Positions 42,208 to 54,614 of a DNA stretch of 64,000 nt are shown piece by piece. The stretch's first letter is position 1. Each line of letters opens with the position of its first letter. Both the position numbers and the translations under genes were made by a program. The DNA is from Candidatus Obscuribacterales bacterium (lineage in GTDB: Bacteria; Cyanobacteriota; Vampirovibrionia; Obscuribacterales; Obscuribacteraceae), in assembly GCA_019745415.1 (NCBI GenBank), contig JAIETF010000003.1, forward strand, positions 62,001 through 126,000. The letters run 5' to 3'. The notes under the pieces are model-generated. The model was given only the letters and a program-made list of their open reading frames with translations, searched no databases and was not told where the DNA came from.

Positions 42208-45584
<3,377 letters not shown>

Positions 45585-46458: not shown

Positions 46459-47763
46459 TTGATCATAAAAGTGTCCGATTTCGAGAAAGCATTAGAAAGC
46501 CGCTATCGCATTCTTGGCAAACTAGGCGAAGGAGCCATGGGCCAGGTCTATCGAGCCGTGCAATTGGAGACTGGTAGGCCGGTGGCCATAAAGGCGCTGG
46601 CCAGAGACCTAGTCAGTGATCCCAAATCTTTGAAGCGACTGGAAAGAGAAGCCAAGTCATTGTCGGTACTGAGCCATACCGGCATTGTCTGCGTCTACGA
46701 ATTTGACACGGCCACAGCTGATGTCCCCTTTCTAGTCATGGAATTTGTTCCTGGTCGCTCATTGAAACAGATTTTGAAAGAGCGTCAGCTGAAATTGAAA
46801 GAGACTCTCAATCTCATGGCCCAGGCAGCTAAAGCCCTTAGCCATGCCCATGTCAAAGGCATAATTCACCGAGACGTCAAGCCGGCCAATATGCTCATCG
46901 ATGAAGCACGCATGGAGTTGAAGATAGTTGATTTCGGCATCGCCAGAAAAGCAAGCAACCTTACCGAACAGCTAACTATCGAAGGAGAAGTATTCGGCAG
47001 TCCTCTTTACATGAGCCCGGAACAGTGTCAGGGGAACGAACTAGACGCAAGAGCCGATATCTATTCACTGGGCTGTGTGCTTTTTGAATGCTTGACCGGC
47101 AGACCACCCTTTCGCGGCATATCGGCTTTCGACACCATGACCATGCATCTCAATGAGAAGCCGGCGGCGCTTTCAAGCATGATAAATCTAGGACCCTATG
47201 GCGAGCTCGATGAGATTGTCGAGCGCTGTCTGGAGAAAAATCCCGAAAACCGCTATCAGCAGATGAGCGAACTAGCTTCAGCACTGGCCGTGCTGAAGGA
47301 AACAGCAGCGGCGGTAAGTGATGAAGAAAGACGCAATAGAGACAGAGAACCAGAAAAGACAGCCGAGGAATCGGGCAGAGCCGCCGAGACTCAGAACCAG
47401 GGTCGAAGCAATCTAAACGGTAAGGCCGCCGCGGTTGTCATTATAGCCATTCTTCTCATCTGCCTGGGGGCAGCGCTATTCACCCTAGGCAAAGTCTCCA
47501 GAAGCAAAGAAACAATTGCGGCGCCTACGTCAACAGACCAAAGAAATCCAAATGCAAAAACTCCCGAATCAGAAACCCAAGAGCCGGCCAGCGCCGACGA
47601 CACAGCCAGACCGCCTGTATCACAAATAGGAATTCCAGCCTTACCGGCTAACTCAAATTCAGCAGAGAAGAAGCCCCTTGACGACGAGACCAACCAGTTT
47701 TCGCAGACCGCTCCCCAAGGCTTACAAATCGAAGTAAAAGACGAAACCAGCAATAAAGAATAG
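46459..47763 (+). CDS. Membrane-anchored Ser/Thr protein kinase (PknB-like)
   Basis: LGEGAMGQVYRA, HRDVKPANMLID, DFGIA, SPLYMSPEQ; single C-terminal TM (AAAVVIIAILLICLGAALFTLG). Confidence 0.96.
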   Translation: MIIKVSDFEKALESRYRILGKLGEGAMGQVYRAVQLETGRPVAIKALARDLVSDPKSLKRLEREAKSLSVLSHTGIVCVYEFDTATADVPFLVMEFVPGRSLKQILKERQLKLKETLNLMAQAAKALSHAHVKGIIHRDVKPANMLIDEARMELKIVDFGIARKASNLTEQLTIEGEVFGSPLYMSPEQCQGNELDARADIYSLGCVLFECLTGRPPFRGISAFDTMTMHLNEKPAALSSMINLGPYGELDEIVERCLEKNPENRYQQMSELASALAVLKETAAAVSDEERRNRDREPEKTAEESGRAAETQNQGRSNLNGKAAAVVIIAILLICLGAALFTLGKVSRSKETIAAPTSTDQRNPNAKTPESETQEPASADDTARPPVSQIGIPALPANSNSAEKKPLDDETNQFSQTAPQGLQIEVKDETSNKE

Positions 47764-49550: not shown

Positions 49551-49862
49551 ATGACAGAATCACAAGGGCAACAGGGGACACGTTTGCCGGTTCTGGTCAA
49601 TCTAGAAGACGGACAACGTTTCACAATTCAGACCCAGGCGGTGACCTTGGGACGAGATCCTGATTGCGACCTCGTTCTAGCAGAAGATGGTTATGCTTCA
49701 GCCAATCACTGCCGCATATTTTGGGATCAAGGACGCCTCTGGCTGGAAGATCTGATGAGCAGTAACGGCACTACATTGAACGACCAAATTGTCAAAATAC
49801 CGACTAAGCTAACCCCAGGCGATGTCATCAAAGCCGGACGCACTCACTTTCGCATCGAGTAA
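49551..49862 (+). CDS. Stand-alone FHA-domain protein
   Basis: VTLGRDPDCDLVLAEDGYASANHCRIFWDQGRLWLEDLMSSNGTTLND. Confidence 0.94.
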   Translation: MTESQGQQGTRLPVLVNLEDGQRFTIQTQAVTLGRDPDCDLVLAEDGYASANHCRIFWDQGRLWLEDLMSSNGTTLNDQIVKIPTKLTPGDVIKAGRTHFRIE

Positions 49863-49868
49863 ACAAAA

Positions 49869-51101
49869 TCAAGGACGCGGGCTCGTCGGATATTGCCCGG
49901 TAGACTCGATACCTTCATTCTTTTCTTCTTTCCAGAATTCGCCTGTCTCATCTTCTTTGGTATATGTCGGTGTCGACTCTGGAGTTTCTGGAAGGGCACT
50001 GCCTGGTGCAGCCACCGGCGGTGCTTTCAAAACACTGGCAGCATCAGGCGCATCGACATCATAGTGAAAAGTGCCGCTACTTCTAATCTTACTGCCTGCT
50101 CCTGATTGAGGACGACTCTGTTCCAGGGTATTCTCAGCGCTTTCTCGCGGTTTGTCTTGCTCTTCCGAAACAGTCTTGGTTGGGGGAGGCGGTGATGGTG
50201 GGAAGATGACAAAGAGAGCCACAACCACTAAGGCGAAAGCTGCAATTCCGGCGATCAACATAAGCTTTTCCCGTTTATGTTTGACCTCTTCCGGACAATC
50301 GCGGGTCATATATTTGCCGTCGCTTCTCTTGTAGAGAGTATACTTTTCAAGATTTTCTCTCTGCAAAATAAGCGCGTCGATTTGCTCTGTTTGAAGACCT
50401 TCCAAATGATAGACAGGAGTTTGACAGCGCTGACAATAACGAAAGCGTTCGCGTCCTTCAGCTTCAGTCCACTTCCAGGGACAAGGCAAGGCTTTCTTGT
50501 GACAAGGGATAGGCTCTATCTGTGGTTGCGGCTCAAGGGCTTTGGCCTTAATAGTTTCCTTGATGCGCGCTTCTTTTAAAACAAAAGACTGCGAGACTGC
50601 TAAGTTGAGCGCGTCATGATCAAGCATTGTCTTTGCCACAGGCTGCTTAGTTTTCTGGGTCTGACTAAGCGCTTGCTCGTTAAACTCAGCCGCTTTGGCG
50701 ACGATACCCGAGATATCAGTGGTGACAAGCGTTTTAGCGATGCGCCTTGTTTTCTTCCTTTCAGGTTTGGCTGTCTCGGCAAGCCGCGGCACTTCGTTCT
50801 CGAGTATGGTCTTGGCCACGCGACGGGGTTTCTTACCCCCAACAGAATGGTCTTGCTCGGCGGGAGACGTATTGTTTTCGGCTTGATTCTCAGCCTGAAC
50901 AGAGGCTTGCTCGGCGGCGGCCTTGGCAGCCAGATTCATCAGGACATTGATGTCAGGTTTTGCCATATCAGCTTCCAACATGGTCTTTGCTACACGCCGA
51001 CGCCTCTCTTTAGTCTTGGAGGGGTCGAAGTGCACTTCAAGCATGGTCTTAGCGACCTTTCGCTTTTTTTGGTCTGACTCTTCGCCTTCTTGCACTTTCA
51101 T
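49869..51101 (-). CDS. Single-TM protein with five VAKTMLE-type repeats and zinc-ribbon-like Cys cluster
   Basis: KVAKTMLE, RVAKTMLE, RVAKTILE, RIAKTLVT, PVAKTMLD; CHKKALPCPW...YCQRCQTPVYHL; TM LMLIAGIAAFALVVVALFVIF. Confidence 0.85.
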   Translation of the reverse strand: MKVQEGEESDQKKRKVAKTMLEVHFDPSKTKERRRRVAKTMLEADMAKPDINVLMNLAAKAAAEQASVQAENQAENNTSPAEQDHSVGGKKPRRVAKTILENEVPRLAETAKPERKKTRRIAKTLVTTDISGIVAKAAEFNEQALSQTQKTKQPVAKTMLDHDALNLAVSQSFVLKEARIKETIKAKALEPQPQIEPIPCHKKALPCPWKWTEAEGRERFRYCQRCQTPVYHLEGLQTEQIDALILQRENLEKYTLYKRSDGKYMTRDCPEEVKHKREKLMLIAGIAAFALVVVALFVIFPPSPPPPTKTVSEEQDKPRESAENTLEQSRPQSGAGSKIRSSGTFHYDVDAPDAASVLKAPPVAAPGSALPETPESTPTYTKEDETGEFWKEEKNEGIESTGQYPTSPRP

Positions 51102-51238: not shown

Positions 51239-51739
51239 ATGCCGTCAGCCAGAAAAAGAATCAAACTAAAAGCTAGAAACAAAAGAGGCGGCGCCTCGAT
51301 AGCTGAGTTCGGACCAGCACTCGGTCTAATTCTTATCTGTATCTTTTTCCCATTAGTAGATATGCTGGCTATGGGTGTCTCTTATGGACTTTGTATGGTC
51401 CTAAATTACAACCAGGTGCATGAAGCAGCTCTTATACCAAGCAGCGAAGCCTTAAATAATGCCGGACCAATCAAGAAAGGCATACCAGATCAGTGGCTGA
51501 ACGGCATGGGTCATTTTGTGAATATGTCGGGCTATCCAAGTACCAATATTTCCTACCGCAACGGTATAGCAGACGCCAGCAACAACCAAGACAAAATAGT
51601 CACAGTTTCTACCACAGTCGTCTGCAATCCCTTCTTGCCTATACCCTTACCGGTTGTGAATGTACCTGGCTTGAACGGCTCGATGACTTTCACTCTTACA
51701 TCCGAATGTCAGATGGAAAATCCAGACAATGTGCAGTAA
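51239..51739 (+). CDS. TadE-like pseudopilin
   Basis: KRGGASIAEFGPALGLILICIFFPLVDMLAMG N-terminus. Confidence 0.65.
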   Translation: MPSARKRIKLKARNKRGGASIAEFGPALGLILICIFFPLVDMLAMGVSYGLCMVLNYNQVHEAALIPSSEALNNAGPIKKGIPDQWLNGMGHFVNMSGYPSTNISYRNGIADASNNQDKIVTVSTTVVCNPFLPIPLPVVNVPGLNGSMTFTLTSECQMENPDNVQ

Positions 51740-52136
51740 CTATAGAGTTCAGCCTAGACGCACAAGTGGTCACAGCATTGTGGAAGCGGTGACAGCGGCT
51801 CTCATTCTCATTCCAATTACGCTGCTTATGCTGGACCTTCTCGTTTTGGTCATTGCCAATTCGATGAACGACACAGCTGCAAAAAATGCCGCCCGTGCCG
51901 GTGCCAATCATTCCGACTCGGGGGCGGCGCTGACGGCAGCACAAACTAGTCTCAACAGCTTCCATAGTTCATCCATATTGAAGTCTTTGCAAATAAAGAC
52001 TTTCGATTATCCCTATCAAGGAGACAAAGTGGCTTGCACAACCAGAATGCAAGTAAATCTACCTGTGCCCTTTCCAGGTTTTTCCAGCTTTACTTTTGAA
52101 GCAAAAGCAGTGGAACCACTCGTCGGCGACAAATAA
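51729..52136 (+). CDS. TadE-like pseudopilin
   Basis: RTSGHSIVEAVTAALILIPITLLMLDLLVLVIANSMNDTAAKNAARAGA; start overlaps previous stop. Confidence 0.7.
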   Translation: MCSNYRVQPRRTSGHSIVEAVTAALILIPITLLMLDLLVLVIANSMNDTAAKNAARAGANHSDSGAALTAAQTSLNSFHSSSILKSLQIKTFDYPYQGDKVACTTRMQVNLPVPFPGFSSFTFEAKAVEPLVGDK

Positions 52137-52163
52137 GAGAAAGCAGAAAGAGAAAGAGACTGA

Positions 52164-53858
52164 ATGGCTATACCAAATCGAGACTCGAAACAAAGAAACA
52201 AGCGTGGCTCTATTATCACCTTCGCCGTGATACTGGCTCTTACTCTGGTTGTGCTTGGTTCCGGCTTCATCTTTTTTGTGCTCTTTATGGGCGGTCAAAA
52301 AGAAACCAAAAACGCCGTTGATGCCGGTATCTTGAATGCCGGCAAACAAGCCATCGATAAGATATCAGTTCCTCTAGCGGGCGGACCCTTGAGCCCTTTT
52401 GCCGATATAACCACCGACCGTGCCGCCAATTATTTGATGGGAGACGGCCAAATCAATCTGCGCAGAGTCAACCGAATGTGGGGCAAAGCGATGCTTATCG
52501 CCATCAACGCGGCGGCGATGCAAAGCGAAGGCAATGTCGGCAGCGGCGCAAGCAATGCCCAGAGCGCCTTCAATGAAGCCCAACAGGTTTCTGACACCCT
52601 GGCTCAAAAGTTGATGACCCAACAGAACCTGCATTCTTTCTTTCAAGATGTAGCCGGTCAAAACTCGATACGCATGCTCGGAAACGGCGTGCAAATCAAA
52701 GTCAAAAGCGGCACCGGCTGGGAGACTTCTCTTTTAGATCGGGGCTGCGAAAGCAATCTTGTTTTGAACGGCAGCCCGCCTTTTTTCAATTTACCGCCGG
52801 GCTATACCCTTCCCAATAATTACTTCACAAAATGTACCAGACCAAATCCGCCCGCCGAAGCAGCCAATCTCTATTTTCTCAAAGGCTATACACCCTTGAC
52901 TGTTGGCGGCAAAACCTTCTGGCAGGTGCCTTTCAAGTTTGACGACAAACCGCATTTGGTGGCACGCTCGACATTTGACGCCAATACTATGAAGAACCAG
53001 CCGCTTAACTGGAACTTTGCCGTGCCCAATGCTTTCTCCGGCGAAGGCGAAGCAATCAAAAGCGGTCCCCAAGGCGAAAAGGCTACTTCTTGGATGCTCA
53101 CCAATCCACGTGAACCCTTTCAGATGGCCATGCCTCATTCTTTCGTCAAAATACACGTAGACGAAAACAAGTCGCACTGGTTCTATTATCCAGGCGGACC
53201 ACCGCCGTTACCCGATACTGAATTTGGTATCGCCCAAACCTATGGCTATACCACCGAGACGCAAAACAGCAGCATGCCGGCAGGGGGACTGCTCTGCGCC
53301 ACTGTCTCAGCTTTCAATGTCTTGCTGGGCACCGATGTGGTGGGGCGCTCACTGGACGGTCTTATTTTCGGCATGCCCGAAGGTAATACGACAGCAGTGG
53401 AAAACTATCTCACCAACCGCTGTAACGAAATGCTCTCGGTGACTGGGCGCAGCGCATCCAAAAGCGATATGCACAATGCTCTTAGCAATCCGGTGACGAT
53501 TGGCTCACTGATAGCTGGTGTGCGAGACTTTTATCTTTATAGTCCCGACGGACAAACTTTGAAATGCATTCCCGCCCCCCAAACCATCGCAGAACCATGG
53601 TTGGCAGCGATTATAGCCAATACTCCAGATGGCACAGAGAAAAAAGTTATTGACGAAGCTTCCATGCCAGCCCCTATCTTTTTCGTGCCGACTGTCGTGC
53701 CAGACCCGTTTTGCAGCCCCAAGCTAGCTCTGGGCTGGGGTCTCTGGAAGAAAGATGTAGCCTGGCAGCCGGGTACAGGTTATAACGGCTGCCTAGGTCA
53801 AGTGCGCGTTAAGCGCTGGACCAATGTCCATGTGCTTGGCGTAAGCTCCTTCCCTTAA
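52164..53858 (+). CDS. TadG-like protein
   Basis: KRGSIITFAVILALTLVVLGSGFIFFVLFMGGQKETKNAVDAGILNAGKQAI N-terminus; long extracytoplasmic region. Confidence 0.65.
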   Translation: MAIPNRDSKQRNKRGSIITFAVILALTLVVLGSGFIFFVLFMGGQKETKNAVDAGILNAGKQAIDKISVPLAGGPLSPFADITTDRAANYLMGDGQINLRRVNRMWGKAMLIAINAAAMQSEGNVGSGASNAQSAFNEAQQVSDTLAQKLMTQQNLHSFFQDVAGQNSIRMLGNGVQIKVKSGTGWETSLLDRGCESNLVLNGSPPFFNLPPGYTLPNNYFTKCTRPNPPAEAANLYFLKGYTPLTVGGKTFWQVPFKFDDKPHLVARSTFDANTMKNQPLNWNFAVPNAFSGEGEAIKSGPQGEKATSWMLTNPREPFQMAMPHSFVKIHVDENKSHWFYYPGGPPPLPDTEFGIAQTYGYTTETQNSSMPAGGLLCATVSAFNVLLGTDVVGRSLDGLIFGMPEGNTTAVENYLTNRCNEMLSVTGRSASKSDMHNALSNPVTIGSLIAGVRDFYLYSPDGQTLKCIPAPQTIAEPWLAAIIANTPDGTEKKVIDEASMPAPIFFVPTVVPDPFCSPKLALGWGLWKKDVAWQPGTGYNGCLGQVRVKRWTNVHVLGVSSFP

Positions 53859-53888
53859 AGCGGCTTGTCTAAAGTTACTTGTCTAAAG

Positions 53889-54443
53889 TTATTTGAGCGC
53901 CCAGCTGATTGAAATAATAGTGCCGCGGTCTTTCGGATTGCGCACCAAGACTATGGAAAGTTTTTGCTTGAGATTGTCGGCATTGATGATGAAAAGATCA
54001 CCGACCTTACCGATTGCCTTCCGCCCTTCCTCACTGGGTATGACTGTGTTGAGTTTGGCTTCGCGGCAAGCCTCCATATACCACTTGTGCACTACATCTG
54101 GTGCATCTTTACTGTACATGGTTAGACCGGCGGTGGGCTTACCACTGGTCGAATTGACAAAGCCTTTGTTATAGGCGTTCGGATAGGGCTTGATTGGGAA
54201 GTTTTCCGGTATATAAGGTCTCAGTTTCAAACCGGGAATGTTCAGGTCTTTGATAGCCTGGGCTCTTTGCTTAGCTCTTTCCTCAGCACTGGGCGGATTA
54301 GGATGGGGTGCGGTTGGCTTCAACCCCGGCGACGGAGACTGAGCCACGGCTTCAATTTGGCAAGACAAGCAAAGAAGGAGGAGAGCGCCCAGCAAAGCCG
54401 ACATAAAAGTAGTGCCGGGGTTCAACTGAATACGCTTTGCCAT
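53889..54443 (-). CDS. Secreted hypothetical protein (start set to ATG 54443)
   Basis: MAKRIQLNPGTTFMSALLGALLLLCLSCQIEAVA signal-like sequence. Confidence 0.6.
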   Translation of the reverse strand: MAKRIQLNPGTTFMSALLGALLLLCLSCQIEAVAQSPSPGLKPTAPHPNPPSAEERAKQRAQAIKDLNIPGLKLRPYIPENFPIKPYPNAYNKGFVNSTSGKPTAGLTMYSKDAPDVVHKWYMEACREAKLNTVIPSEEGRKAIGKVGDLFIINADNLKQKLSIVLVRNPKDRGTIISISWALK

Positions 54444-54614
54444 TCTACAGCCTTTGATTTTCATCCTTGCAATTCTACTACGTCGCTGAGCTCCTTCCAC
54501 TTGATATCCCGCTCTCGTATTTAGTTTCGCTTTTGTTATTTCTTTTGATATTTCTTCAATGACAAGCCTTTACCCTTTCGCCCCGGCGCCTCACTGTTGT
54601 ACCTTATCAACCTT

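Follow-up and report, generated by a model that had tools for sequence, protein, structure and literature searches.

FHA domains recognise phosphothreonine and not phosphoserine, and the residue three positions downstream of it (+3) is often the specificity position of their ligands. Docking of the mycobacterial FHA protein FhaA on the membrane protein Rv3910 (MviN), which belongs to a peptidoglycan context, is phosphothreonine-dependent, and MDC1 carries an array of phosphothreonine repeats that is read by the FHA domain of RNF8; to our knowledge, arrays that repeat an FHA ligand several times are known in eukaryotes alone, this pair being an example. The FHA domain of RNF8 prefers Tyr or Phe at +3 (PMC4037201). 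In the type VI secretion system (T6SS) of Agrobacterium, PpkA, TssL carrying a phosphothreonine at position 14, and Fha constitute a switch, of which the TssL event has been shown biochemically (PMC3953482). FHA proteins or FHA-CpaF fusions also cluster with Tad-like genes in the Kil system of Myxococcus and in other Tad systems, where phospho-signalling is suspected, and the available portions of these reports describe no FHA ligand array (PMC8460266, PMC12019362).

Here, we analysed a window of 64,000 nucleotides from the genome of a Candidatus Obscuribacterales bacterium (contig JAIETF010000003.1), in which a predicted membrane protein with five copies of a short threonine motif is encoded next to a small FHA protein. 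This pair probably represents a phosphothreonine docking array on a membrane scaffold that is read by the neighbouring FHA protein and is likely tied to a Tad-like appendage. The arrangement is reminiscent of TssL, an inner-membrane protein that, through a phosphothreonine near its N-terminus, recruits an FHA protein activating a surface machine, but it is predicted here from sequence and involves up to seven sites rather than one, a Tad-like locus rather than a T6SS, and unrelated proteins. It also resembles the FhaA-Rv3910 complex (3oun), in which a membrane protein is bound at its cytosolic part by an FHA domain of close fold, although that complex uses a single site and FhaA is a multidomain protein. 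MDC1 and RNF8 share with it several short T-x-x-[F/Y] motifs in a disordered tail and one FHA reader, with Phe or Tyr as found in three lineages here, but operate in a eukaryotic DNA-damage pathway and are without homology. By contrast with the Kil and Tad clusters, the FHA gene stands alone, and the conserved block beside it yielded no ATPase gene. The kind of interaction, phosphothreonine-dependent FHA recruitment, is a known one, and what appears new is that a membrane protein of a bacterium carries such an array and has a single-domain reader dedicated to it. The two genes and the features of the motif protein are:

49869..51101, minus strand: 410-aa motif protein with a disordered N-terminal tail bearing five motifs, a Cys4 ribbon, one transmembrane helix and a low-complexity C-terminal tail.
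51036..51059, minus strand: motif 1, KVAKTMLE (T19).
50973..50996, minus strand: motif 2, RVAKTMLE (T40).
50799..50822, minus strand: motif 3, RVAKTILE (T98).
50721..50744, minus strand: motif 4, RIAKTLVT (T124).
50619..50642, minus strand: motif 5, PVAKTMLD (T158), the ribbon-proximal and most conserved copy.
50292..50483, minus strand: cysteine ribbon, C207..C223xxC226..C269 (residues 207-270), with invariant cysteines, W211, Y231, D261 and G262.
50202..50261, minus strand: strongly predicted transmembrane helix (residues 281-300), preceded by KHKREK.
49551..49862, plus strand: stand-alone FHA protein of 103 aa with a single FHA domain, convergent with the motif gene across a gap of 6 bp.

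Translation of the open reading frame at 49869-51101 gave five [VI]AKT[MIL] copies at exactly the threonines listed in a preliminary description of this DNA, which had also correctly noted that four of the five read T-x-x-E/D: Glu or Asp stands at +3 after T19, T40, T98 and T158, and Thr after T124. T158 and D161 are invariant across alignment A2. Residues 1-165 are polar, cysteine-free and almost devoid of aromatics, and the protein as a whole had no match in Pfam or NCBIfam. The preliminary description had contained neither the cysteine ribbon nor the transmembrane helix nor the adjoining TadE/TadG-like genes. The ribbon, a probable metal site, found no counterpart in Pfam, in NCBIfam or in PDB sequence and fold searches, and its structure model, of moderate confidence (pLDDT 73), resembles no solved structure. 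Given the basic stretch before the transmembrane helix, the motif tail is predicted to face the cytosol and the C-terminal tail the periplasm, a topology that follows from the positive-inside rule, hydropathy and charge and places the threonines on the predicted cytosolic part of a membrane protein, as in a TssL/Fha-type switch.

The synonymous positions of the copies vary (for example, GTC GCT AAG ACC ATG CTT, GTA GCA AAG ACC ATG TTG and GTG GCC AAG ACC ATA CTC), so that the motifs are no recent DNA repeat, and a recent duplication was ruled out as their origin. A search of GTDB relatives found homologs of the motif protein nearly confined to its own Obscuribacterales family, the named records being from Candidatus Obscuribacter phosphatis and other Obscuribacterales. 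In 11 genera of this one family, R-[KR]-[VI]-[AP]-[KR]-T-[ML]-[LIM]-[ED, or F] recurs three to seven times in disordered N-terminal tails, and the motif thus persists in relatives. Across 26 family proteins, the window protein included, the strict form of the motif occurs 65 times and the relaxed form 88 times in the tails, where shuffling of the same tails would yield 0.003 and 0.06, and no copy lies C-terminal to them. A profile of 122 internal copies, drawn from 60 distinct sequences with patterns that required Thr at the acceptor, reads R(-5) K/R(-4) V/I(-3) A/P(-2) K/R(-1) T M/L(+1) L(+2) E/D(+3), and [FYP]VAKTMLDH is the prevailing form of the copy nearest the ribbon. These data support the earlier claim that the short motif itself is under selection. 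Tail length is highly variable and the linkers between motifs have no alignable sequence, as would be expected if the repeats were a functionless by-product of tail expansion, in which a basic low-complexity segment was duplicated; that explanation is hardly credible, being contradicted by a conservation pattern in which the peptide is kept while synonymous sites differ, copies are recovered between genera at protein identities of ~28-47%, and none occurs outside the tails.

In its own genome, a DNA-pattern search found the repeated motif in the 49869-51101 gene alone, the remaining matches being chance, which rules out a genome-wide tag on many proteins; a phylum-wide tag was likewise ruled out, as the stricter pattern matched once each in 3 of 385 other phylum genomes, about the control rate. 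A motif search on plasmids gave no match, and a literature search on the motif string found no paper. Several variants were seen within the family. One genome encodes a ribbon-less 298-aa protein with a C-terminal transmembrane helix (G014 L117:7203-8099, minus strand; G014:C6:204205-205098) that has ~five motif-like copies (VAKTLLE, LAKTLID, PLKTLMD, VAKTLMD and MAKTRLD) and no full-length relatives within the family, and the motif is therefore portable. The long tails of genus g23 (L064, L094, L098, L100 and L065) contain an extra variant, LRKTMLGI, LRKTLMN or LKKTFMG, with Gly or Asn replacing Glu/Asp at +3. The ribbon domain, which lacks a Pfam entry, is also much duplicated without motif arrays, occurring at many loci in G022 (25 matches), G018 and G035, and several of these copies adjoin Ser/Thr kinases.

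The choice between Thr and Ser can be read only from the count in which the acceptor was left free, since the profile patterns demand Thr; among its 133 matches, 132 have Thr and one has Ser, in tails where Ser outnumbers Thr (1378 to 849). Basic residues at T-5, T-4 and T-1 are almost as conserved as the hydrophobic ones and suit recognition by a kinase; the conserved Lys/Arg at T-1 and Arg at T-5 go beyond what a pure FHA-ligand reading needs, and a kinase reading would require them. With ~94 kinase-domain matches in the genome as well, the repeats could be a kinase-docking or substrate array whose multi-site phosphorylation makes the tail (or ribbon) change its charge or conformation, while the FHA protein acts elsewhere, for example on the kinase. 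We consider this quite unlikely, because Hanks kinases generally accept Ser, leaving the 132:1 ratio unexplained, and because it does not account for the close tracking of the FHA gene by motif copy number described below.

The 103-aa partner belongs to the FHA family by its PF00498 score (67.8 bits, cut-off 20.7), and its predicted structure (pLDDT 88) matches the fold of 3poa at a TM score of 0.81. The model's matches are phosphopeptide-binding FHA domains, namely FhaA (3poa, 3oun), DgcB (6hc1) and Rad53 (1g6g), and include phosphopeptide-bound structures such as 6hc1 and 1g6g, while the phosphothreonine-pocket residues G34, R35, S50, H53 and SSNGT (70-74) are invariant among 16 orthologs (alignment A1). 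Two narrower assignments were rejected: a GarA/OdhI-type protein, which bears a phosphorylatable Thr-Thr motif N-terminal to its own FHA domain, because the conserved part is preceded by just ~12 variable residues and on account of an OdhI model score of 30.1 bits against a cut-off of 200, and FhaB/FipA (Rv0019c), on account of an NF049868 score of 84.5 bits against an equivalog cut-off of 125.

As first described, the FHA gene is directly convergent with the motif gene, ending at 49862 against 49869. All 24 loci compared, the present one among them, show the same orientation, with gaps of 2-148 bp. They had been fetched for the ribbon gene; the unbiased check is a genome-wide search with the FHA alignment, which recovered an ortholog at E < 1e-46 in 25 of 50 family genomes, all 25 adjoining a ribbon/motif gene. 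All 24 FHA-ortholog genomes with a readable tail (11 genera) encode a ribbon protein bearing three motifs or more, the locus of the 25th, G070, being cut by its contig. Genomes lacking an FHA ortholog have a maximum of two motifs in any ribbon protein read (the G022 and G035 paralogs in part), with several of the 50 genomes incomplete and single absences uncertain; G022 and G035 do encode divergent FHA relatives, neither of which adjoins a ribbon gene. Counted by ribbon-family member, an adjacent FHA gene accompanies 23 of the 30 with at least three motifs and 1 of the 27 with two or fewer, that one truncated by a contig end (Fisher p ~1e-8, phylogeny ignored), and the host genomes of all seven members with at least three motifs and no adjacent FHA gene still encode the FHA protein. 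Within genus g24, G025 and G064 have no FHA ortholog and keep the gene beside Tad-like genes with 0 and 1 copies, and G034 has both the FHA gene and arrays. This linkage and co-occurrence of target and reader, again as in a TssL/Fha-type switch, strongly support the multi-copy arrays as FHA ligands, and the most economical reading appears to be an array of phosphothreonines on which the neighbouring FHA protein docks.

A kinase had been proposed as the third member of the module, and is indeed encoded ~2 kb beyond the pair:

46459..47763, plus strand: candidate Hanks-type Ser/Thr kinase, ~2.1 kb away, with a GH57 gene in between.

In all three members of the genus, a stretch of 5 kb takes in the kinase gene together with the FHA and motif genes, and orthologous synteny of this kinase with the pair is confined to those three; most other genera have different kinases or none near the pair, ruling out the adjacent kinase as a conserved part of the module beyond the genus, and no kinase co-evolving with the pair was found. 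Moreover, the 5.7-Mb genome contains ~94 Hanks-type kinase-domain (Pkinase) matches, so a nearby kinase is not rare and adjacency is weak evidence. That the 46459 kinase itself phosphorylates the array read by the FHA protein, a sub-case of our preferred explanation and compatible with it, is therefore unlikely. Of the kinase/substrate/FHA module in the preliminary description, comparative genomics supports the FHA-ligand half, with all 25 FHA orthologs linked to the motif gene, and not this particular enzyme. The kinome of this genome is thus very large, with ~94 kinase-domain matches, and its known readers are few, with five FHA domains. Also in this region, an 837-aa protein (42208-44721, minus strand) has TPR repeats after a pair of retropepsin-like aspartyl protease domains.

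On its other side, the motif gene adjoins four genes near or below Pfam detection, which are kept as a block (51239-54500) in most FHA-bearing genera of the family:

51239..51739, plus strand: small membrane protein of 166 aa, resembling a pilin in its position only and encoded divergently to the motif gene; conserved neighbour, no Pfam match.
51729..52136, plus strand: TadE-like 135-aa protein, below the Pfam cut-off; conserved neighbour.
52164..53858, plus strand: 564-aa protein, TadG-like by a weak match in one ortholog only; conserved neighbour.
53889..54500, minus strand: 203-aa secreted-looking protein, conserved, the last member of the block.

This weakly TadE/TadG-like block, whose matches (TadE E 0.004-0.07, Tad E 0.09) are all below the Pfam cut-offs, accompanies 18 of 24 FHA-adjacent members, and the T2SSE ATPase genes of the genome sit on other contigs. 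TadE/TadG-like genes thus adjoin the motif in most loci, and a short basic-hydrophobic peptide could be an ordinary docking motif, which would allow the motif to bind another partner, such as a pilus ATPase or platform protein, independently of phosphorylation, with the FHA protein linked but not the reader. An invariant Thr from which Ser is excluded would be unusual for such a motif, however; six FHA-adjacent members have no detected Tad-like gene nearby (some are cut by contig ends), and all eight Tad-adjacent members without an adjacent FHA gene either come from an FHA-bearing genome or have at most two motifs. We therefore judge phosphorylation-independent docking improbable and retain the FHA protein as the likely reader.

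The natural ligands also vary at +3. Most internal copies in lineages g5, g10 and g12 have Phe or Tyr there, so the pT-x-x-D class suggested earlier is too narrow. Among all FHA columns, residue 52 is the one most associated with the +3 class (E/D or F/Y) and follows the Phe/Tyr variation, being acidic in 7/7 versus 1/16. A tree from which the FHA gene was left out implies three or more changes of the F state, but only a single comparison involves branches with support, and a monophyletic origin of the F lineages is not rejected (p-AU 0.107). The +3 residue has been described as contacted mainly by the position two residues N-terminal to the conserved Ser (PMC4037201), which in the FHA orthologs is nearly always Y48. 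There are too few phylogenetically independent events for the covariation to prove a contact, and we regard residue 52 as a lead only.

Taking these observations together, we propose that the 410-aa protein is an inner-membrane scaffold whose cytosolic N-terminal tail would be flexible and present five equivalent sites for docking, R-[KR]-[VI]-A-K-T-[ML]-L-[E/D]. We infer phosphorylation, binding, the identity of the kinase and the link to an appendage: the threonines would be phosphorylated by at least one of the many Hanks-type kinases in the cell, and each phosphothreonine would bind one copy of the small convergently encoded FHA protein. Copy number would then set how many FHA molecules are held at the membrane, making phosphorylation a graded recruitment switch. 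As the pair is kept next to TadE/TadG-like genes, what the recruited FHA protein would most likely regulate is a Tad-like surface appendage, in its assembly or its activity. A more elaborate form, in which copy number tunes recruitment of the dedicated single-domain reader to the multivalent array, a lineage-specific E/D or F/Y code at +3 co-evolves with the FHA protein, and the module as a whole controls a Tad-like surface machine, is a tentative possibility.

Bacterial FHA domains are widespread, yet few of their natural ligands are known. In this family, sequence by itself may suffice to predict a ligand; a consensus, copy numbers that range naturally from 0 to 7 and natural +3 variants are available, and bacterial FHA specificity therefore becomes directly testable with peptides. 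The module would also offer an entry point to the kinase network of the Obscuribacterales, with ~94 kinase-domain matches and five FHA domains in this genome.
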